From Bacteroidota bacterium (lineage in GTDB: Bacteria > Bacteroidota > Bacteroidia > NS11-12g > UBA9320): a stretch of 10,838 bases of DNA. The notes beneath the pieces are model-generated. The model was not told where the DNA came from and ran no database searches. It saw only the letters and a program-made list of their open reading frames with translations. Position 1 is the first letter of the stretch; every line of letters starts with the position of its first letter. A program made the position numbers and the translations under genes. The stretch covers positions 1 through 10,838 of the forward strand of contig DNBZ01000120.1 of the NCBI GenBank assembly GCA_003484585.1, written 5' to 3'. Of this stretch, positions 1-10,838 are shown one piece after another.

Positions 1-2409
1 GCTAGCAGGATATCCCGCTGCAGGGCGAATACCTTGGTACTTTTCTAGTATTAAGTCTCGACTGCTTAACTCCTCATTTACAGCATATCCCCAAATATCC
101 TTTCTCATTTTTTGGTGCATACGCTCTGCCATAGCCTCTGCTAGCCTATCGGCTAGTGCTTTTACCATTATAGAGTTATAGTCATCGTGATCTGCTTCAA
201 AAGCGGCTATGAGAGGCTCTATACCTATGCCCGCAGTTACTGCAAAGGTTCCTATGTAATCTTGCTTACCCGTTGATTTGGGAGCTACATAGTCGGCTAG
301 TGATATGTTGGGGATGTTGGTTCCCATTTTTCGTTGTTGTCTTAAGAAACTAAAACGTGTTCCATTCTCTAGCACCACGTCTCCATTCACCTCGTTAGCA
401 GGGAATACGCCTAGCACTGCTTTGGCTTTTAGCTTCCCGTGCAAGATTATATCGTCTAGCATAGCATTTGCATCAGCAAATAGTTTTTTAGCTTCTTCAC
501 CTACATATTCATCTTCGAAAATGTTAGGGTACTTACCTCGAAGCTCCCAAGTTTGAAAGAATGGAGTCCAATCTATGTATTCTTTTAAGTCTTTTAAATC
601 GATATCTTGATATACGTGAATTCCTTCTTGCAATGGAGTAGGAGGAGTATAGGCTTGCCAGTCCAATACCAGTTTATTTTCTAGAGCTTCGCTCCAAGGG
701 AGTATTATCTTGTCTGCTTGTCTAGCTGCATGTTGTATTGCTAGCTCCTTGTACTCAGCCTTGGTATCAGACTCAAATTTAGCTCTTGAGTTTTCTCCTA
801 TTAATTTACCTGCCACAGGTACAGATCTTGACGCATCTAGCACGTGTACTATAGGGCCGCTGTAATGTGGAGCTACTTTTACGGCTGTGTGTACTCTACT
901 AGTAGTAGCACCGCCTATCAGAAGTGGTATTTTCATGCCGCGACGTTCCATCTCTGCAGCTACATCTACCATCTCGTCTAAACTAGGGGTAATAAGACCA
1001 CTGAGGCCTATTACATCTACATTTTGTTTTATGGCTTCGTCTAGGATCACATTGGCAGGCACCATTACTCCTAAATCTATTATTTCATAGTTGTTGCAGG
1101 CTAATACTACACTTACTATGTTTTTTCCAATATCGTGTACGTCTCCTTTTACCGTAGCTAGTAAGATTTTGCCTTGGGTATTTCCTTCGGACTTATCGGC
1201 TTCTAAATAAGGCTGCAGGTAGGCTACAGATTTTTTCATTACTCGAGCACTTTTCACTACTTGGGGTAAGAACATCTTACCAGAACCAAACAAGTCTCCT
1301 ACTACACTCATTCCTGCCATTAGTGGTCCTTCTATTACGTGCAGTGGTTTGGTGTAGTTTTGGCGAGACTCCTCGGTATCCTCCACTATGAAGTCTGTTA
1401 TTCCTTTTATAAGGGAATGTTTAAGTCTCTCTTCTACCGATTGATCTCTCCAGCTTAGGTCTACGACTAGTTGTTTACCATCACCTTTCACAGTTTCGGC
1501 AAAGTCTACCAGACGTTCTGTGGAATCACTTCGTCGATTGAATAAGACATCTTCTACTCGTACTAAAAGTTCCTTTGGAATCTCTGCATAGACTTCTATC
1601 ATACCTGCATTTACTATTCCCATGTCTAGTCCTGCTTGTATGGCGTGGTATAAGAAAGCAGAGTGCATAGCTTCTCGTACTATATTATTCCCTCTAAAAC
1701 TAAAGGAGATATTACTTACGCCACCACTTACTTTAGCATAGGGTAAGTTTTCTTTTATCCATCGCGTAGCATTTATGAAATCTACGGCATAGTTATTATG
1801 TTCTTCTATACCTGTAGCTACGGTAAGTATATTGGGATCAAAGATGATATCAGATGCTGGGAAGTTTACTTTGTTTACGAGAATATCGTAACATCTCTGG
1901 CAAATAGCAATTCGTTTTTCATAGCTATCTGCTTGACCTTTTTCATCAAAAGCCATGACTACTGTAGCAGCACCATAGCGTTTTATCTTTTTAGCACGAG
2001 CTATAAAAGCTTCTTCTCCATCCTTTAGACTTATAGAGTTTACTATCCCTTTGCCTTGTATTGCTTTTAGTCCTGCTTCTATGATTTCCCACTTGCTAGA
2101 GTCTATCATTACAGGTACTCGGCTTATGTCTGGCTCTGCGGCTATGAGATTTAGGAATTTTACCATGGCTGCCTTGCCATCGAGCATTCCTTCATCCATA
2201 TTTACGTCTATTATCTGTGCACCATTTTCTACTTGCGAGCGAGCTACAGAAAGTGCTTCGTCATATTTATTATTCAGTATGAGTTTTGCAAAGGCTTTAG
2301 AACCGGTTATGTTAGTTCTCTCGCCTATATTGATGAAGTTAATATTGGGAGTTTGAACCATTGGTTCTAAACCGCTAAGTCGTAAATAGTTTTCTATTGT
2401 TTTTGGCAT
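1..2409 (-). CDS. metH: Methionine synthase, split form: pterin, cobalamin and reactivation domains (3' end cut by window edge)
   Basis: Cobalamin-dependent methionine synthase moves the methyl group of 5-methyltetrahydrofolate through cobalamin to homocysteine, in the cytoplasm. I translated 803 codons from the ATG at 2409 ([16 protein letters not shown]) without a stop. The pterin-binding domain covers about residues 20-280 ([40 protein letters not shown]). The helical cap is about 281-403 ([22 protein letters not shown]). The B12 domain is about 410-540, with GDVHDIGKN whose His425 should be the lower cobalt ligand, plus [13 protein letters not shown] and GGATTSR. The reactivation domain begins near 555 ([22 protein letters not shown]) and reaches the SAM-binding RPAAGYPA motif at 795-802. 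By comparison with E. coli MetH about 80-90 residues are missing. The N-terminal zinc/homocysteine module is absent and a TAG lies in frame upstream, so this is the larger half of a split MetH, as known in Bacteroidota. A SAM-I riboswitch precedes it. Identification is firm. Confidence 0.96.
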
Positions 2410-2410
2410 A

Positions 2411-2442
2411 TATGCAAATTGCAAAGAGATGTTAGGTGCATA
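2411..2442 (-). promoter_or_regulatory. Possible hairpin next to the metH start codon
   Basis: TATGCA at 2411-2416 and TGCATA at 2437-2442 form a 6-bp inverted repeat with a 20-base loop. The inner arm lies one base upstream of the metH ATG, between the riboswitch and the start. It could close the initiation region and so act as the expression platform. The stem is short and AT-rich, and I could not compare it with relatives, so this is weak. Confidence 0.3.
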
Positions 2443-2446
2443 GAAA

Positions 2447-2554
2447 CTTATCTGGTCCGTCAGCTGACGGATAGGATGTAGCACCTTGAGTATGAAATGT
2501 CTTTCAGGTTGCTAAGACTTCTATGGGCCTAATCCCTCAGTCTTTCTTTATAAG
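2447..2554 (-). promoter_or_regulatory. SAM-I (S-box) riboswitch upstream of metH
   Basis: Read on the minus strand from 2554 to 2447, this 108-nt segment has all the parts of the SAM-I aptamer. P1 pairs the initial CUUAU with the terminal AUAAG. P2 pairs AAGACU with AGUCUU and carries the kink-turn core GAGGGA. The GGCCC, GAAG and GCAACC blocks match the family consensus order. P3 pairs ACCU with AGGU, and the invariant GGUGCUA follows. P4 is a perfect hairpin, UCCGUC/GACGGA, at 2456-2471. The P2 loop UAGG can pair with CCUA in J3/4 to form the expected pseudoknot. The family binds S-adenosylmethionine and turns off methionine-pathway genes, which fits metH directly downstream. The aptamer ends 37 bases before the metH ATG, and no U-tract terminator follows, so control of translation is more likely than attenuation (inference). 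Confidence 0.95.
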
Positions 2555-2559
2555 TGATG

Positions 2560-2567
2560 CAAATGTA
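2560..2567 (-). promoter_or_regulatory. Bacteroidota -7 box (TAnnTTTG) for the metH riboswitch transcript
   Basis: On the minus strand these bases read TACATTTG, an exact match to the TAnnTTTG -7 element of the primary sigma factor in Bacteroidota. It ends 5 bases before the first base of riboswitch helix P1, so transcription would start almost at the aptamer, as expected. No clear TTG -33 element is present at normal spacing; that position is occupied by the T-tract after the terminator of the preceding gene. The position is the strongest support. Confidence 0.65.
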
Positions 2568-2582
2568 TTAATTCTGTTACAT

Positions 2583-2618
2583 AAAAAAACCCTTCTGTCG
2601 CTCGACAGAAGGGTTTTT
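2583..2618 (-). terminator. Intrinsic terminator of the sigma/anti-sigma/PKD-protein operon
   Basis: CCCTTCTGTCG at 2590-2600 and CGACAGAAGGG at 2603-2613 are perfectly complementary, giving a stem of about 10 bp with a tight loop. It is flanked by seven A on the left and five T on the right, so on the minus strand the hairpin is followed by seven T. It starts about 30 bases after the stop codon of the giant PKD gene and is well placed to end that transcript before the metH promoter. The A/T flanks would let it work in both directions, but no plus-strand gene converges here. Confidence 0.92.
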
Positions 2619-2646
2619 AATAACCTGATTTATATAGGTTATATTT

Positions 2647-5600
2647 CTATTGGTTTCTGATTAATTCAATCTGACCCTCTACTGGACCAAGACCTTCATT
2701 CTCTTCACCAAATAGGAATTTATAGTTTACAATATAGAAGTAAGTGCCTTCTGGGCAAGATATTCCTGTGTTGTTTACTTTTCCATTCCAAGTTGTATTT
2801 ACGTCCGTAGTTTCAAATACTCGCTCACCCCATCTGTTGAAAATCTTCATTTCGAATTCTTCTATCGACGTACCGTCTATAATAAATTCATCATTCTGTC
2901 CGTCACCGTTTGGTGTAAATACGTTGTAGAATGTGATTTTTCTAGAGAAAGTATTGGTAATCAATTGACAAGTGTCATCAGGACATTCAGCTTCTGAAGT
3001 ACTGACAACATAGAGACATACTTCAAATGTGCCTACCTGGTCATTCCAATTGAAACAAGGATTAACTTCAAGCTTCTCTTCTAAAGTAGGTTCAAAGGTC
3101 CATCTGTATTTATCAGGATTAGCTCCTGTAGATGTGTTAGTGAAACAGAAGATTGGCTTAGCAGAAGAATCTATAGTAAAGTTAGCTTTAACATCGTCTA
3201 CCGTGATTAGTATAGTATCTCTGTCCCAGCATCTTGGTATTATATCATACTCAGGTGCTACAACTACTTCGTAAACTCCACCTTGAGACCAAGAGTAAGT
3301 AATACTATTGTCTGGTATAGTTTTACTGATACTGTCGTTAGGTTCTAAGTACCACTTCATTCTAGTATATCTAGGGTCCAAAGTATCTGCTGTAAATGTG
3401 ATCACCTCACCTACACAAACGAATGTGTCTGAAGCCAATATCTCTACTGGAGGAAGTGGATTCACTATTACAATAATCTTACGTTGGTTTGCTATGTCCG
3501 GATTAGTATCTGGGAATATTCTACTACATCTCTGAGATGTGCCAGGTATTAAATCCTCCTGCGTTAGGTATAGCTCATATGTGCCAGGAGTATAATAAGT
3601 ATGACTATATTTATCTCCAATAGCAGACGGTGCAGTAAATGTGCCATCTCCCCAATCCATTTGGAAAGTAGGTGTGCTTATATCTCCTTTACCCGTATTG
3701 ATAAGCAATACACTATCTCCTGCACAGATTATAGCAGAATCATTTAGATTCCAAACATTTAGATCAAACTCAAACTGTGGCTGAGGCCCTGGTATAAAGA
3801 TAGTTTGGGTTATCTCTTCTATACAACCTAGCTCAGACCATACTTTTAGCGTCACGTCAAAGGATCCGCCAGATGTATAGTTGTGTGAAGGGTTTTGTAA
3901 TATACTCTTACGTGTACTATCACCGAAATCCCATTCCCATCGGATTATACTTTCGCAAGAAAGGTCTACACCATTGCTACAAGTATCCTTGTCTGCACAT
4001 GGATCATCTACAAAACTAGTATCGAAGAAGTTTACGATAGACGCACAATTGATAATAGTGTCATCTAGCGTAAAGCCAGGATGTAGTTTAGATACATATA
4101 CTGTAAGGAACGTAGTGTCTCTACAGTCTACACTGTCTTTAGATACTATCGTAATAGTATATGTTCCAGGATCTGTATATATATTGTTAGGTTCTATTGA
4201 TCTGTAGTCGTCCCATACACCGTCTGTACTATCCCAATCTAGAGTATAGGTCTCTTTATTGTTAGTATATCTATCGAAATCTTGCCAGAATGGGAAGACT
4301 TTGATAGGGTATGTAAACGGATCTTCTTCGCCATATTGGTAATAGCGTTGGTAGTAGTCTACGTCGAGCCTCAGACCCTGACAGATATTCTCATTTTTAA
4401 GAGAATAGTCATTCAAGAATCCTACGTTCAATAGGCGTGCAGATCTAGCTTCGCAACCTACTGTACTATTAAGGAAAAGAGAAGGTACCATTGGGCCGTT
4501 TCCAGCTCTATAAATAGTGTCTTTTATAGTTGGGTCACATTCATTTGGTGTTATTATTTCTGGATATCTGTAGGTATATTTCCATACCCCAGTTATAGTA
4601 TCTAGTTGTCCGTTTCCAGAGGTATCTTGTAGTAAGGTATCATACCCTTGTAGAGATGAATCTCTAAAGTGAAGCACTTCTGCTACTTCTATGAAATCTA
4701 CTACATCAGCTCTATTCGTATTAGGCATAGAGTCTACGCGAGATATAGAGTCTTGTGCAGGGTTCACTTGAGATTTAATAACCGCACCTGAACCATCTCG
4801 AGCGTAGGTAGTATCTTTAATAAACTGAGGGTTGTATAATGTACCTCTGTATCTCTTATTACCAGTCTGCCATACGGACGAGTCTATTTTTTGATGCCAA
4901 GGTCTTACCCCGAAAGTAAAGAATTGACTAAGTCCAGTAGTGTCTAAACAACCAACTGTACCGTCTCCTAAGTAGTAAGGAACATCTTCTGGTGGTATGT
5001 CAGCATATCTTAAACCAAGTAATTGGTCAAATGCGTCAACAACTAGAGTATTAGCATTACGTGTATTAGCTATTATTTGCCAATCTTTAATAATTAGCGT
5101 AACAATAGTATCCAATACTTGGTTACCTGTAATATCACTCAATTCTCTTCTTACTACATAGTTGTATAGCCAGTCTTCCCCATTGTAGGTATAGTTTTCG
5201 TCATTTCTTCCGGCTACTGGGCCAGTGTACGGTTGGTAGTATTCAAACTCTTCTACGTATACTGCTAGGCCTGGTCCTTTACCTATACCTTGGTAACCCC
5301 AAGCCCATCTTAGTGTTTTGATACTATCTTGTATTTCTTGGTCCATTTTGAAGTACGCAGTACCCCCAGCACACATAAAATGTCTACCAAGTCCGTCTGC
5401 AACAGGTAGTAATATTTCAAACTCTGGTGCTAAAGGAAGTATTCTGAATAAATCTGGGTAGTATGAAGTGTCCATACACTCTGGCGGTCCACCCAATGGA
5501 TTAGGAGGTCCGTTACCTACTATTAGTCCTAGGGTAAATGAGCCAAACGGAGTACGCTGATATGGATCACCAATGTCAAACTTACTATACTCTTTCACAA

Positions 5601-8600
5601 ATGTAGTACCAGTATTACCTACAAGGTCATATGGTAATCCAAACGGTATAGGAGTACCCAAAGCACCATCGGGAGCCTTAACTCCACCCCCATTGTATAC
5701 ATTCCAAGAAGAGGAAAGTGCTGGTGGAAAAGCTAGTGTATCATAATTCACTTCAAACCATTGTTGTGTACAACCGGGTTTAGTATCAGCAATATCAAAT
5801 TCTAGAACATATTGAAAAAATCCATTAGTATAAGGACAAGGGAAACCTGAAGTCCATTCTAGTCCATCTGCACTAGGAGGAGTAAGAGCAAGTGATTTAG
5901 TGCCTGTTGCTTTACAATTAAGCGGGTGTATAGTGTCTTCTTGGTATAATGTAACGCTGAAACAGCCAGCGTTATCCAAGAACCACTTAGATCTGTGTGC
6001 CGCAGAGTCTACGAAAACTTGAGATCTAGTTTCTGTAACTAATAAGCCAAACTTAACCACCTGTACAGGATAGCTAGAAGGAGCGGCGTATGTAGTATCT
6101 GGAGTAGTCTCTTCTACAGTTATATTAACAGTAATACAATCGTTTGGAGATAACTTAAACTGCTCGTTAGGATCTAGAGTTACTGTAGCCGGACCTGTAA
6201 TAGTACGTCCTGGGCCACCGCCACCTCCACCAGCACCTCCTGGAGGTGGTGGGAGCATCACGGTAGTCATAGTAACCCCTGCTGGAATATCAAATTCCAT
6301 TTCGTGGTACGTCACAGTCCATTTTGTGCTTCCGTTGCCTGCAAGCGGGTTATTTCTACCTAGCCAATCTTCATTATGGTATGTAGTATCAGTTACTATA
6401 TTAGCTGCTACAAAAGTATCTAGTGCAGCATCCCAATAAAAGTCAGTTCCACAGAATTTACTTGGTGGTCTTTTTACTACCCAATTTCCTAATTTGCCAT
6501 ATGGATAATTTACGTATGCGGGGATTGTAACGCCCATATAGGTATATGCTGAATCTATAGGAACTGTAAGAATGGTATCGGCTGGCACAATCATAGGATT
6601 GGCAGGATACACATTTACAGGGTAACAGAATGTATCTGGTTTGAACAATCTAGTTTCTACTATAGGCGTGGTATAGTTTCTGCCATCTTGCATAGTTCTA
6701 TACACTTCATCCCAAGGAGTATACCAATGTATTGGAATACTATCTACTCTGAAATTACAGTTGATCCCAACATTTTTACTTACCCAGGGTCTACTGTCTG
6801 TAGTACACTGAGGAGCAAATTGATCTCCCATATCCCATATTCTAAAAATATTTGGTCTATAATCTCTAATGTTTATTGAGGGATCTACAGCTGTTTGGTC
6901 ACCAGTACCAACACCGCCTTTTCCTACGGGTGGAATATAGTTGAACACAAAGCGTTTACGTGGATTAACACCAAATCTATAACTAGTGCCACTAGCTGTA
7001 GGAGACGTAAGATAGGATATCTTATGGTAAGTAGTAACACCACCAAATATAACCTTCAATGAGTCCTTAGTTGCATCCCAAGACACAGTATATCCTTGTC
7101 TTGTTACTGTAGCTCCATCAGCAAATACTTCTTCATTGATTTTGAAATTACCACGCGGTTTTTCTTGCCAAGTTCTAAAATAGAACTTGTAAGTACCATT
7201 TGAGTTATCAAACTCTCGGTCAAATGTGAAATCATAATAGTAAGTTGAAGAATCTTCATCTAATCTATTCCAATCGTTTTGATAGAAGGTTGAATTATTT
7301 ACAAACTGTACAGAGTCTCTAATCTCGCACTGGTAAGCTTCATCTTGAGCTACACGATTAAACGGCACCTCTATAGTGGACCCAGGACCAATTACTTGAA
7401 CAGTGTCGTATATGGTAACATCACATGGACCAGCTATTAGTCTTAGACTTATCATCCACGGTCCAGGACCGTATGATTTGTCTGGTGTAAGTGTCTTGTC
7501 ATTCACGTTGGCAGGGCCAGCCGGCGGATCACCAAAGTTCCATAAAAATGCATCTACACCAGGAGTAGCAGGTAAGTTAGCTACAGAAAACTTAATAGGA
7601 TTATCAGGGGTACAAGCTGGGTTGGGAGTAGATAGTATATTGGGATTCATCACAATATTAGCTACTGCTGCTTTGAAAGTAAATGTATCTGTACATCCAT
7701 AAGCTGTGGCTACCAATGAACCGTCAAAGGTGCCGTGGGTTCTATACATGTGTTCTATGATTCCGTCATTAGCCACTCCTGTCCACCATTGAGTATTAAC
7801 AGTAGAGTTGCCATCTATCCTGAGACCATCTCCAAATATCCAAGTGAATGAATCTACCTGAGCTAAGCTAACTAAAGATATGTTTTGATAAACACCTAAA
7901 GTAGAATCACAACCTGGATTAGGTGGTGGAGTAAGGTTGATAAACTCTATTCCTAATTTAGGGCGTACCAAAAGGTAATCTGTGAAAGTTACTTTTGAAA
8001 CACAACCACTAGAATCTTCTGACTCTATCACAAGGTCAAAAAAGCCACCTGTAGGGTCAGTAATACTAACACAAAATTCAATAGGGAATACTGGGTTAAT
8101 AGAATCTATACGCAAACCATTACTAAACACGTAGGTTTGGCGAACTATTAAACCACTTGGAGCTTTAGACGTGTCTTTAAAACAAAAGCTATTGTTTTCA
8201 AAGCACTGTATCGAGTCGTTTTCTCTAAAAAGATGTATATCTGGTGAAGGACTTACATTTACCGTTAAGGTCTTGGTACATGTACCTGCAGGACCTGTAC
8301 CTGTGAAAGTTACTGTATAGGTTCCAGATGTAACATAACTATACGTAGGTTTTGGTACGTTACTAGTAGCGGATCCTGCTGGAGTAAGACCGAAATCCCA
8401 TAAAATGGTGGTAGTAAATCCAGGAGAGTTTGCATCAAAGGAAATAAGCTGACCTTCGCAAAAAGTACCTATAGTACCTTTTGTCCCATCGGTGAGTGTC
8501 ATCTGAGGAAAGCAATTTTGTGCAAATGCAGAAAATCCAGCAAACACTAGTACTAGTGTTACGACATACTTAGACAGTACATCTTGAATAAATGATTTTT

Positions 8601-8673
8601 TCATACGTAATTTGTTTTTATAGATGTTGTATTGTGAATCCAAAAAGTCTGTAAATTTAATGCGGTTGTTCAT
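2647..8673 (-). CDS. Giant PKD-domain surface protein with C-terminal CHU_C (T9SS type B) sorting domain
   Basis: A secreted protein of about 2008 residues, probably a cell-surface adhesin or matrix protein exported by the type IX secretion system. A signal peptide with a hydrophobic core ends at FSAFAQ near residue 52. PKD or PKD-like domains follow; clear cores are WDFG (about 92), WIFGDG (277), WNFGDP (377), WEWDFGDS (about 1576) and MDWGDG (1672), with more divergent units between about 1478 and 1905. Roughly residues 440-1460 match no domain I recognise and are rich in Asp, Thr, Tyr and Trp. A Pro/Gly tract lies at about 808-822. The last 96 residues are a CHU_C domain (VFTPNGDGQND, KIFNRWGERVF, WNGK, CPEGTYFY, closing IELIRNQ), which in this family directs T9SS export. 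I chose ATG 8673, 11 bases after the preceding stop; ATG 8604 would give a shorter standard signal peptide, and an in-frame TTG lies at 8682. The ligand is unknown. Confidence 0.9.
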   Translation of the reverse strand: MNNRIKFTDFLDSQYNIYKNKLRMKKSFIQDVLSKYVVTLVLVFAGFSAFAQNCFPQMTLTDGTKGTIGTFCEGQLISFDANSPGFTTTILWDFGLTPAGSATSNVPKPTYSYVTSGTYTVTFTGTGPAGTCTKTLTVNVSPSPDIHLFRENDSIQCFENNSFCFKDTSKAPSGLIVRQTYVFSNGLRIDSINPVFPIEFCVSITDPTGGFFDLVIESEDSSGCVSKVTFTDYLLVRPKLGIEFINLTPPPNPGCDSTLGVYQNISLVSLAQVDSFTWIFGDGLRIDGNSTVNTQWWTGVANDGIIEHMYRTHGTFDGSLVATAYGCTDTFTFKAAVANIVMNPNILSTPNPACTPDNPIKFSVANLPATPGVDAFLWNFGDPPAGPANVNDKTLTPDKSYGPGPWMISLRLIAGPCDVTIYDTVQVIGPGSTIEVPFNRVAQDEAYQCEIRDSVQFVNNSTFYQNDWNRLDEDSSTYYYDFTFDREFDNSNGTYKFYFRTWQEKPRGNFKINEEVFADGATVTRQGYTVSWDATKDSLKVIFGGVTTYHKISYLTSPTASGTSYRFGVNPRKRFVFNYIPPVGKGGVGTGDQTAVDPSINIRDYRPNIFRIWDMGDQFAPQCTTDSRPWVSKNVGINCNFRVDSIPIHWYTPWDEVYRTMQDGRNYTTPIVETRLFKPDTFCYPVNVYPANPMIVPADTILTVPIDSAYTYMGVTIPAYVNYPYGKLGNWVVKRPPSKFCGTDFYWDAALDTFVAANIVTDTTYHNEDWLGRNNPLAGNGSTKWTVTYHEMEFDIPAGVTMTTVMLPPPPGGAGGGGGGPGRTITGPATVTLDPNEQFKLSPNDCITVNITVEETTPDTTYAAPSSYPVQVVKFGLLVTETRSQVFVDSAAHRSKWFLDNAGCFSVTLYQEDTIHPLNCKATGTKSLALTPPSADGLEWTSGFPCPYTNGFFQYVLEFDIADTKPGCTQQWFEVNYDTLAFPPALSSSWNVYNGGGVKAPDGALGTPIPFGLPYDLVGNTGTTFVKEYSKFDIGDPYQRTPFGSFTLGLIVGNGPPNPLGGPPECMDTSYYPDLFRILPLAPEFEILLPVADGLGRHFMCAGGTAYFKMDQEIQDSIKTLRWAWGYQGIGKGPGLAVYVEEFEYYQPYTGPVAGRNDENYTYNGEDWLYNYVVRRELSDITGNQVLDTIVTLIIKDWQIIANTRNANTLVVDAFDQLLGLRYADIPPEDVPYYLGDGTVGCLDTTGLSQFFTFGVRPWHQKIDSSVWQTGNKRYRGTLYNPQFIKDTTYARDGSGAVIKSQVNPAQDSISRVDSMPNTNRADVVDFIEVAEVLHFRDSSLQGYDTLLQDTSGNGQLDTITGVWKYTYRYPEIITPNECDPTIKDTIYRAGNGPMVPSLFLNSTVGCEARSARLLNVGFLNDYSLKNENICQGLRLDVDYYQRYYQYGEEDPFTYPIKVFPFWQDFDRYTNNKETYTLDWDSTDGVWDDYRSIEPNNIYTDPGTYTITIVSKDSVDCRDTTFLTVYVSKLHPGFTLDDTIINCASIVNFFDTSFVDDPCADKDTCSNGVDLSCESIIRWEWDFGDSTRKSILQNPSHNYTSGGSFDVTLKVWSELGCIEEITQTIFIPGPQPQFEFDLNVWNLNDSAIICAGDSVLLINTGKGDISTPTFQMDWGDGTFTAPSAIGDKYSHTYYTPGTYELYLTQEDLIPGTSQRCSRIFPDTNPDIANQRKIIVIVNPLPPVEILASDTFVCVGEVITFTADTLDPRYTRMKWYLEPNDSISKTIPDNSITYSWSQGGVYEVVVAPEYDIIPRCWDRDTILITVDDVKANFTIDSSAKPIFCFTNTSTGANPDKYRWTFEPTLEEKLEVNPCFNWNDQVGTFEVCLYVVSTSEAECPDDTCQLITNTFSRKITFYNVFTPNGDGQNDEFIIDGTSIEEFEMKIFNRWGERVFETTDVNTTWNGKVNNTGISCPEGTYFYIVNYKFLFGEENEGLGPVEGQIELIRNQ
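6208..6252 (-). repeat. Pro/Gly low-complexity tract inside the giant PKD protein
   Basis: On the minus strand this stretch encodes PPPP, then GGA, then six consecutive glycines and PG. It is the only strongly low-complexity, GC-rich patch in an otherwise complex AT-rich gene. It probably forms a flexible linker between folded parts of the unassigned central region, and such tracts may vary in length between strains (inference). Confidence 0.75.
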
Positions 8674-8684
8674 ATTTTTCAAGT

Positions 8685-9941
8685 TTAAGGACGTTTTAGC
8701 GTGATTTTAATATTTTTAGTCTCAGGAATCTCTCCATTTAGGGTGTAACTTATCTTAGCAGCATACACTCCGTTAATGCACTCGTTGCCCATATTAAATA
8801 GGTCCCCATTCCATCCTTCTTCAGGATTTTGCGATGCATAAACCATCTTTCCTGCAGAATTAAAAATTTGAATACTGAAATTCTCATAGCCTGATATTTC
8901 TACTTTATATGTGTCGTTGCTGCCATCAGCTCCAGGAGTGAAAACATCAAATATTTCTATGCTTCCTTTTCTTTCGATGGTAGTCTTAGTTTCTATAGGT
9001 ACTGCACAGGAGTTGTTTACGGGTACAGCCTTTATGCTATGCTCGCCTACCTGGTGTATTTGTGTAGTAAATACTTTGGAGTTAGTTTCTTGGAGTACAT
9101 TATCTAAATACCAATTTGCAATTATTCTCTTGTTATCTAAGGAGTATGAAAATTCAGAATCATTGATCTTATTGCTAAGAATAGATGCTGTAAATTTTTG
9201 AATGTAGATTGTTGTAATCGTTGAGTTTTGCTCTTTTTTAAGTTTAAATATGACTGGTCCTTCTTTAGAGCATTTGTATTTTATAAGGTTGCAATTAGTG
9301 GCTATGGGTTTGTCATTCACAAACCAATTTCCTTTTTCAGTTGACTTGAGCACTACAGTCTCTCCTATACAAGGTTTTAGATTAGAAGCTAATATGGATA
9401 GTTTAGTTGCAGCGACCTTAGTCGGCAGCTCTTCTTGCTTGTCTGTCTTACTGTTCTCATCGCCAGTGTAGTTATTAGTGTCTTCTAGCGTAGAGCTAAC
9501 CTGTTCCGTTAGATCAGTAGATTGTTCCTCTTTTGGAGAAGTCGTTTGTGTCTTTTGAGATTTAAAGTTAGGTGTGTTTACCTTAGCTGTAGACTCGTTA
9601 GCAATAGGATATTCCGTATTTTCTATTTCGCTTCCTTCTGCACTGGATATAGTATCCGTTTGCTGCTCGGTATTTTGAGTTTCTTGTACGGGATTTATTT
9701 CAGGAGTATTCTCGGTGTAAATAACGATTCCTACAGCCGCTATACCGCCTGCAAATAGGGCAACTTTTAATATGTTGGTAGCGGAGCCGAAATATGTGGT
9801 GACTTGAGAAAGAAGACCAGCAGATTGCGAAGTACTAGCTGCTACACTACTCCACACATCTGGCGGAGCAGGTGTACTATGCCCTTGCAAAGTATCCTTT
9901 AGTAAATTTTCAAATTCCGATATGTCTTTGATTTTTTTCAT
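8685..9941 (-). CDS. Probable anti-sigma factor: single-pass membrane protein with Ig-like domains and a CHU_C-like C-terminal domain
   Basis: This 418-residue protein probably holds the adjacent ECF sigma factor inactive at the inner membrane. The N-terminal 55 residues (FENLLKDTL, then PAPPDVWSSV at 25-34) resemble the short cytoplasmic segment with the PPxVW motif found in Bacteroidota membrane proteins encoded after ECF sigma genes. One membrane helix covers about 57-76 (ILKVALFAGGIAAVGIVIYT). Residues 77-178 are a Ser/Thr/Glu/Asn/Gln-rich linker, likely disordered. Two Ig/PKD-like units follow at about 179-250 and 251-325. Residues 328-418 are a CHU_C-like domain (FDVFTPGADGSND, IQIFNSAGKMVY, WNGD, CINGVYAAKI, closing ITLKRP). 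It aligns with the end of the giant protein encoded next, but the RWG of that domain is SAG here. The start is 3 bases after the sigma stop, so the two are coupled. The anti-sigma role is inferred from context and the N-terminal motif; it has no classical zinc anti-sigma motif. Confidence 0.8.
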   Translation of the reverse strand: MKKIKDISEFENLLKDTLQGHSTPAPPDVWSSVAASTSQSAGLLSQVTTYFGSATNILKVALFAGGIAAVGIVIYTENTPEINPVQETQNTEQQTDTISSAEGSEIENTEYPIANESTAKVNTPNFKSQKTQTTSPKEEQSTDLTEQVSSTLEDTNNYTGDENSKTDKQEELPTKVAATKLSILASNLKPCIGETVVLKSTEKGNWFVNDKPIATNCNLIKYKCSKEGPVIFKLKKEQNSTITTIYIQKFTASILSNKINDSEFSYSLDNKRIIANWYLDNVLQETNSKVFTTQIHQVGEHSIKAVPVNNSCAVPIETKTTIERKGSIEIFDVFTPGADGSNDTYKVEISGYENFSIQIFNSAGKMVYASQNPEEGWNGDLFNMGNECINGVYAAKISYTLNGEIPETKNIKITLKRP

Positions 9942-9944
9942 AGG

Positions 9945-10487
9945 TTAAAACCAATCTTTAAGCCACTCTTGTAATTGTTTGCGGGCCTTGAAAAGTTGAG
10001 TCTTGGATGTGCTTTCGCTTATTTCTAAATAATCGCTTATCTCTTTGTGTGAGTATCCGTCTACTATAAACAAGTTGAACACTGTGCGGTAGCCTTCTGG
10101 CAATTGTTGCACTAGGGTCATCATTTTTTCTGCATCCATGCTTCCTGTTTCTATTTTAGCAGTGAGTGGAAGCTCATTGCTATTAAGCTCTGATACGTCT
10201 AGGTGCATTTTGCGTTTGCGAATAAGTTCTATGCTAGAGTTCACAAATATGCGTTTCATCCATCCCTCAAAACTCCCAGTAAATTTGAATTTGCTTATGT
10301 TTTTGAACACCTTAATAAAGCCTTCTTGCAAAGCATCTTTGGCTTCGTCTTCGTTGTTCATATATCTTAAGCAGATGCTGTACATTGTTCCTGAGTGTAT
10401 TTCGTATATTTTTCTAAATGCTTTACTATCTCCATTACTGCAAGCCTTAATCAATGATATTTCATCGTGTGATTCACTAGTGCTCAT
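9945..10487 (-). CDS. ECF (extracytoplasmic function) RNA polymerase sigma factor, sigma-70 family
   Basis: A 180-residue sigma factor of the usual ECF length, with only regions 2 and 4. Region 2 covers about residues 22-92, including the core-binding and -10 melting segments DEAKDALQEGFIKVFKNI and FEGWMKRIFVN, ending in the basic IRKRK. The linker 95-118 is variable. Region 4 covers about 121-176 (LPEGYRTVFNLFIVDGYS), with the helix-turn-helix HKEISDYLEISESTSKTQL that reads the -35 element. It should direct RNA polymerase to a small set of promoters when released from the membrane protein encoded 3 bases downstream. The ATG at 10487 is the first after an in-frame TAA 15 bases upstream. I see no clear TAnnTTTG box in the 51-base gap before it, so its promoter may be further upstream or of its own type. 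Subgroup not assigned. Confidence 0.95.
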   Translation of the reverse strand: MSTSESHDEISLIKACSNGDSKAFRKIYEIHSGTMYSICLRYMNNEDEAKDALQEGFIKVFKNISKFKFTGSFEGWMKRIFVNSSIELIRKRKMHLDVSELNSNELPLTAKIETGSMDAEKMMTLVQQLPEGYRTVFNLFIVDGYSHKEISDYLEISESTSKTQLFKARKQLQEWLKDWF

Positions 10488-10538
10488 TGCTCTGGATGTT
10501 ATTTAGATGTACTCAGTGGGTTATTGGTTGCCTAAGAT

Positions 10539-10838
10539 TTATATTTTTTTTACGTGGTATTTTTCTGCTAGGTATTCTTTGAGGTTTTCAGCATAATATC
10601 CTACCGCTTCTAGGGGCTCTATTATTTCTGTTTCATTGAGACCTTCTAGCACTCTTTTAAACTGTATGCTTATGATACGCTGTTCAGAATTGGCTATGAA
10701 TGAAGCACTGAATAGGTGAAAATTGAGATGTGCCAACTCTTCCATAAATGTAGCTAAATGCTCATCTGCGGGATACTCGCAGATAGGTGATACTATCTGA
10801 AAAATACTGGCTATATTTTGTCTATCGAAGTATTGCCA
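10539..10838 (-). CDS. YbjN-like small protein, C-terminal part (5' end outside the window)
   Basis: The frame is open from the right edge to the TAA at 10539-10541, giving 99 visible residues, so the gene starts outside the window; the internal ATG at 10745 is just residue 32 of this part. The visible protein has the layout of YbjN/type III chaperone-like folds: an alternating strand pattern around LNFHLFSASFIANSEQRIIS, an IQFKRVLEGLN segment, and a final long helix (AVGYYAENLKEYLAEKYHV). It has no signal peptide or membrane segment in this part and is probably cytoplasmic. YbjN-family proteins are small and their function is poorly defined. It ends 51 bases before the sigma factor on the same strand, with no terminator between, so read-through into the sigma operon is possible. 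The family call is tentative. Confidence 0.55.
   Translation of the reverse strand, partial: WQYFDRQNIASIFQIVSPICEYPADEHLATFMEELAHLNFHLFSASFIANSEQRIISIQFKRVLEGLNETEIIEPLEAVGYYAENLKEYLAEKYHVKKI

Follow-up and report, generated by a model that had tools for sequence, protein, structure and literature searches.

A membrane-anchored protein ending in a type IX secretion signal domain, encoded between an ECF sigma factor and a giant secreted protein in Bacteroidota

How Bacteroidota pass the state of their type IX secretion system (T9SS) or outer membrane to transcription is largely an open question. It is raised by one gene in contig DNBZ01000120.1 (Bacteroidota bacterium, assembly GCA_003484585.1), positions 1 to 10,838 of which were analyzed and are referred to below as the window. 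The gene lies beside an extracytoplasmic function (ECF) sigma factor gene and encodes a 418-residue candidate anti-sigma factor that ends in CHU_C, the C-terminal domain of T9SS type B cargo. Why should a protein held in the inner membrane carry such a domain? We find that the gene is the middle member of a conserved operon, which unites a sigma factor, a membrane protein bearing a T9SS signal, a T9SS-type cargo protein and a promoter-like site. Judged from sequence, the protein is best seen as resembling an anti-sigma factor of the Dma kind in which a type B T9SS signal takes the place of the β-barrel. We give an even chance to the reading that it is an envelope-spanning anti-sigma factor in an operon of ECF sigma factor, anti-sigma factor and surface protein, docking on the T9SS or on a PorP-like barrel through its captive CHU_C domain.

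Gene order and domain architecture

The three genes run head to tail on the minus strand (sigma factor 10487 to 9945, membrane protein 9941 to 8685, giant protein 8682 to 2647):

9945..10487, minus strand: ECF sigma factor gene, first of the operon; 180 residues, with regions 2 and 4 (PF04542, 51.5 bits; PF08281, 60.2 bits) each above the Pfam cut-off
8685..9941, minus strand: CHU_C protein with membrane anchor, candidate anti-sigma factor; 418 residues
2647..8682, minus strand: giant secreted PKD/CHU_C protein; PKD_4 108.6 bits, CHU_C 73.9 bits and TIGR04131 48.8 bits, the last two both above cut-off

Gaps of 3 nucleotides (sigma factor to membrane protein) and 2 nucleotides (membrane protein to giant, whose first possible start codon is used here) separate the genes. 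The length of the giant, 2011 residues, is counted from the earliest possible start codon; its true start may be a later ATG, for example near 8604 at the signal peptide. The adjacent sigma factor gene had been recognized in the initial annotation of this DNA, which did not name the giant as the third member. The membrane protein is divided as follows:

9834..9941, minus strand: N-terminal anti-sigma-like segment, residues 1-36, with low-confidence helices at 7-18 and 28-34 and the motif PPDVW
9711..9776, minus strand: one transmembrane segment, at about residues 56-77, with hydropathy highest at residue 57 (2.20)
9402..9710, minus strand: disordered hydrophilic tether, residues 78-180; predicted local distance difference test (pLDDT) score below 50 up to residue 177
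8970..9395, minus strand: two Ig-like domains, about residues 183-250 and 254-324; AlphaFold2 pLDDT above 90
8688..8963, minus strand: CHU_C / T9SS type B domain, residues 327-418

The segment at about residues 56-77 is the sole strongly hydrophobic one (19-residue Kyte-Doolittle mean 2.20). Because 55 residues precede it, it is read as a membrane anchor and not as a signal peptide, a judgment made from hydropathy and the position of the segment without a signal-peptide program. The single anchoring helix that had been proposed earlier is thus retained, as is the PPxVW motif, found as PPDVW at residues 26-30 with P26 and W30 invariant across 36 aligned sequences. The C-terminal CHU_C assignment was likewise confirmed, with PF13585 matching residues 328-402 (E=1.4e-14, 54.4 bits against a cut-off of 27) and TIGR04131 falling just under its cut-off (E=1.6e-8, 34.6 bits against 35). 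Weak rows in Pfam and NCBIfam other than CHU_C and T9SS tails look like chance.

An AlphaFold2 model was built on the alignment of 36 sequences. Residues 29-177, including the membrane segment, have no confident structure, and the membrane segment is not modelled as a helix; from residue 181 onward nearly all blocks exceed a pLDDT of 90 and form the two Ig-like domains and CHU_C. Mean pairwise identity in the same alignment is 0.61 for the N-terminal segment and the transmembrane segment, 0.52 for CHU_C, 0.30 and 0.33 for the Ig-like domains, and 0.13 for the tether (residues 80-178). In the alignment, three relatives whose frames are 290-306 residues long lack the Ig-like domains yet keep the N-terminus, transmembrane segment, tether and CHU_C; CHU_C is therefore the constant part of the ectodomain. 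Fold searches with the whole model matched generic Ig/Fn3 chains in the PDB, and those with the CHU_C model placed Ig-like domains of streptococcal proteases at the top and T9SS C-terminal domains (CTDs) lower. When the family profile was compared with PDB sequences, the only match lay in the tether and was put down to chance.

Conservation of the three-gene order

A database search restricted to proteins of 0.55-1.75 times the query length listed 47 homologues, all with CHU_C and with 95-100% query coverage. Among the minority of listed full-length matches that bear an organism name, there is no cultured species. Of the 40 loci read first, 36 have the membrane gene immediately flanked by the sigma factor gene upstream and by the giant downstream. 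Note that L040 is the same place as L009, and that L021-L036 and L038 are not an unbiased test because they were mostly chosen for a giant-like frame nearby. Among rows that do not fit, L018 is cut before the sigma factor gene and the sigma frame in L024 is split in two; L028, L037 and L039 (the last two cut by contig ends) were picked as short CHU_C frames and look like ordinary CHU_C proteins without a sigma factor.

For an unbiased test, genome contigs were searched with part of the giant (A5) and not with the membrane protein. The best 79 of 116 confirmed matches were kept, nearly all of them from metagenome-assembled genomes; eight could not be scored, five with the membrane gene cut and three with the giant at a contig end. 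The direct order of sigma factor, transmembrane CHU_C protein and giant was found in 68 of the 71 scorable loci. The other three (L152, L181, L191) lack either the sigma factor gene or the membrane gene, and the assemblies of L152 and L191 hold a trio elsewhere (L122, L174). By rough rules, a signal-peptide-like N-terminus is present in all 68 giants, and the transmembrane segment begins at least 38 residues after the first methionine in 66 of the 68 membrane proteins.

A class-wide search covered 396 genomes, for nearly all of which four candidates were scored, so that recall is limited. The 30 listed matches cover most of the profile, and 27 of them (all except G181, G170 and G380) were read, 19 lying outside the two nearest families. 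An ECF sigma factor gene is directly upstream in all 27, and a giant is downstream in 22; these 22 span seven family codes and the five without a giant span four. Across the class, sigma factor and membrane protein were seen together in 11 family codes, and in seven of these the giant accompanies them. No giant was detected within 1.5 kb downstream in L061 and L063-L066, where the sigma factor is present, and in L048-L050 a few hundred bases intervene before the giant. Because both the three-gene order and the coverage of homologues with CHU_C are conserved, the layout is more than chance.

The giant itself belongs to a tight orthologous family, with 42% mean column identity over a stretch of about 540 residues in 12 giants from two family codes. 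On this comparison it does not appear to be a generic fast-changing adhesin.

N-terminal segment and relation to Dma anti-sigma factors

No anti-sigma model was listed for residues 1-55 in Pfam or NCBIfam at E values up to 1. The segment was then compared as a profile (A3, about the first 85 residues) with 24 relatives at E up to 0.05. Matches in 22 of the 24 recovered the trio protein. Seven genomes gave a second, weaker match (E 3e-7 to 0.01) in proteins of 414-516 residues, all seven with an ECF sigma factor gene directly upstream and a transmembrane-like segment near residues 41-75. CHU_C had no match in any of the seven, and five showed weak Pfam β-barrel matches (E 0.0007 to 0.07), none of which reached its cut-off. 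One of the seven lies in the window's own genome, which thus has a second pair, an ECF sigma factor and an anti-sigma-like membrane protein with a weak barrel match (G000:C80, L242:2456-4293), which is likely a Dma-like paralogue. In four distant loci of one family code (L048, L049, L050, L052), the N-terminal P..GVW/F-type segment is duplicated in tandem, as if two sigma-binding segments were present.

Dma1 and Dma2 of Bacteroides thetaiotaomicron consist of an anti-sigma domain, a transmembrane segment, a disordered tether and a β-barrel, and their dependence on sigma was shown genetically (PMC13088901). The window protein has in common with them one transmembrane segment, a long disordered tether, a C-terminal β domain and an adjacent sigma gene, its N-terminal segment may correspond to their anti-sigma domain, and the Dma2 operon likewise has a third gene (PMC13088901). 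Dma proteins end in a fused barrel, whereas the window protein ends in CHU_C after Ig-like domains; the lack of a barrel places it outside the definition of a Dma. Since the seven further homologues found with A3 carry an adjacent sigma factor gene, a transmembrane segment and, in five of them, weak barrel matches, the window protein is best seen as a Dma-kind anti-sigma factor with a T9SS type B outer part. This likeness refers to the published description of Dma and not to its sequence, and the neighboring sigma factor is classed as ECF without assignment to ECF21.

The absence of an anti-sigma model match could also be taken to mean that there is no anti-sigma factor at all, the protein being cargo-like and retained by an uncleaved signal anchor next to a sigma factor gene by an accident of operon structure. 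We regard this as highly improbable, given that the pairing is conserved over many family codes, that the N-terminus is homologous to those of other ECF-adjacent membrane proteins, and that 55 residues precede the membrane segment.

The CHU_C domain and its terminal motif

The CHU_C domain is shared with T9SS type B cargo such as SprB and PG1035 (PMC9143113). Unlike that cargo, the window protein has no cleavable signal peptide, is anchored in the inner membrane and is encoded next to a sigma factor gene. A further difference lies in a terminal GxVxLxR-type motif, the pattern for which was defined after inspection of the giants. It is present in 60 of the 62 complete giants of the trio loci and in 8 of the 13 other CHU_C proteins of the window's genome, and is missing from the 418-residue protein and from all but one of the 68 trio membrane proteins. 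More distant members of the membrane-protein family retain it in 10 of 19 cases. The domain as a whole is kept, with a CHU_C score in 27 of 27 proteins and core D, W, G and Y invariant in 24 aligned domains.

The lost tail fits a binding domain that is not processed as cargo, and equally fits lost T9SS contact and a new ligand. The latter corresponds to an explanation that we consider unlikely, the co-option of CHU_C as an ordinary Ig-like binding domain of the periplasm: without T9SS contact, it would recognize a ligand, most simply the giant in transit, and in this way control the sigma factor. Loss of the motif in 67 of 68 membrane proteins, against its retention by the giants, speaks for it, as does the near-constant company of the giant. 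Trees point the same way, since the CHU_C domains of membrane proteins tend to group apart from those of giants and cargo. FastTree separated 69 membrane proteins and 14 of the 19 distant ones from all giants and cargo (0.905); in a mixture-model tree (67 rows, quick search) all 37 fell on one side with a branch support of 57, which is not significant, and the trio members by themselves needed 2 changes. Set against co-option are the tail kept by the distant members and the conservation of the CHU_C score and core residues.

Promoter-like sequences and candidate targets

10505..10532, minus strand: ECF-like promoter GGCAACC-N16-CATCT, 17 nucleotides before the sigma factor ATG; recurs in related loci

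The −35 box [GA]G[GA]CAAC[CT] occurs in 62 of 68 sequences upstream of the sigma factor genes (shuffled mean 0.85, maximum 4). The two-box pattern occurs in 30 of 68, always with identical spacing although 12-20 was allowed, and a looser two-box pattern in 37 of 68. These counts are not independent because the loci are related. The operon is probably transcribed by its own sigma factor, to judge from the promoter-like site. By eye, L061, L063, L064 and L065 show a promoter-like site with a spacer of 14 and CGTCA in place of 16 and C[AG]TCT.

Across 20 genomes the strict pattern gave 78 sites against 44 in a reversed control, so most of these sites are chance. The window's own genome has 3 such sites against 0 in the reversed control; the two beyond the operon precede a secreted DUF1573/HYDIN-Ig protein and a secreted protein cut by a contig end. 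The former site (G000:C350:792-819, L101) is near-identical in 8 genomes of the genus, with the downstream gene read in two (L101, L103), and this makes the DUF1573/HYDIN-Ig protein a candidate second target. When 30 loci around strict sites were read, many sites were intragenic and some intergenic ones preceded secreted proteins, which is no more than suggestive.

A relaxed pattern was applied to 25 loci of gldK (12), porU (12) and porV (1), scanning at most 1.5 kb upstream. Six matches were obtained, none of them before the gene in its direction; at L215, a porU locus, there is no DNA upstream to scan, and the gldK start of the window's own genome is not covered. As no site was found before gldK, porU or porV, there is no sign that the sigma factor controls the T9SS machinery. 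This bears on a model in which the sigma factor would drive T9SS component genes, with the membrane protein as a PorA-like accessory. In its favor, T9SS genes are under SigP control in P. gingivalis, where the CTD protein PorA acts on that pathway (PMC7712824); in F. psychrophilum they are driven by an ECF-type class of promoters, SM6 (PMC9723704). The SM6 class likewise is an ECF promoter, with a CGT-type −10 box, and its regulon includes the ECF/anti-sigma pair THC0290_1774/1773; it drives T9SS component genes, whereas in the 24 loci with upstream DNA the window's site was not found before gldK, porU or porV. PorA, like the window protein, is a CTD protein tied to ECF sigma activity, but it does not have the build of the window protein; it is on the cell surface, is thought to act via PorY and PorX, and is not described as an anti-sigma factor; its authors write that the connection from PorA on the surface to the inner-membrane kinase PorY should run through further factors (PMC7712824). 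We therefore rate SigP-like control as very unlikely.

Absence of sites before T9SS genes also bears on a switch resembling FlgM. In the flagellum, FlgM provides secretion-coupled control. By analogy, the T9SS would pull on CHU_C, the strained anchored protein would be proteolysed, and the sigma factor would be freed once the channel works. The anchored cargo domain, which sits 100-302 residues (median 210) past the membrane helix in 68 loci, and its CTD-like fold fit this idea, as do the T9SS parts present in the window's genome (PorV, 407 bits; PorU, 1194 bits; a partial GldK below cut-off). We consider such a switch quite improbable, since 67 of the 68 proteins have lost the cargo tail motif and the candidate sigma targets observed are not T9SS machinery.

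Proposed mechanism

In the docking model that we favor, residues 1-55 would hold the sigma factor at the inner membrane, as their homology and pairing suggest. One helix would span that membrane, and the disordered tether would bring the Ig-like and CHU_C domains towards the outer membrane. CHU_C would then be a captive type B T9SS signal, which cannot leave because the protein is anchored. Proteins with a type B CTD bind PorP-like barrels, as in the pairs PG1035-PorP and SprB-SprF (PMC9143113), and CHU_C may similarly dock on the T9SS translocon or on a barrel resembling PorP or SprF. The window protein would thus borrow a barrel through a binding domain; Dma carries its barrel in the same chain. 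If docking changed, because the barrel or translocon is missing, overloaded or taken up by the giant, the anti-sigma factor would be altered and the sigma factor freed; the signal could run in either direction. The state of docking, perhaps contested by the giant from the same operon, would set sigma release. Freed sigma factor would transcribe its own operon, and hence the giant, if the promoter-like site is used as supposed.

A more specific version, which we think unlikely, is a sigma factor gated by the T9SS. The anchored cargo domain would be captured by the translocon or by a PorP-like receptor, and strain or occupancy would free the sigma factor, so that the giant is made only when the outer-membrane route is ready (or fails). 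If true, this would be a counterpart of the secretion-coupled control by FlgM, built on a split Dma plan.

The idea of a pseudo-cargo sensor, as first proposed, is supported in part, and the domain layout on which it was built is confirmed. Should CHU_C dock on the T9SS or on a PorP-like barrel, the site of secretion in the outer membrane would be joined to a sigma factor by a short physical route. In the literature on this architecture, mostly papers outside subscription, no published description was found of an anti-sigma factor with a T9SS signal domain at its C-terminus. Each part is already known; their combination, the tie to the giant and the spread over the class appear new to us.

Other CHU_C proteins of the genome and neighboring genes

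The window's assembly (2.16 Mb in 376 contigs) is about 70% complete. It yields 15 TIGR04131 matches, two of them in the window. The contigs of the 13 others are mostly short, and no ECF sigma match was found in these 13 loci. Contig ends truncate nine of the proteins; in the four whose N-termini are complete (L069, L075, L077, L079), the N-terminus is signal-peptide-like by eye.

Giants of the window's genus seem to have some 26 additional N-terminal residues ahead of the signal peptide (window ~8604-8682; L003, L012, L016), in which a KFTxFL-like motif was seen by eye to recur. This extension resembles an extended signal peptide region.

At one end of the window, positions 1-2484 (minus strand) encode a cobalamin-dependent methionine synthase with pterin, B12 and activation domains. 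At the N-terminal end of its frame Pfam listed no homocysteine-binding domain, and at the opposite end the frame leaves the window. At the other end, positions 10539-10838 (minus strand) hold a small gene that is cut by the window end and had no match in a Pfam search; its tail also precedes the sigma factor gene in relatives (for example L003, L012 and L017).
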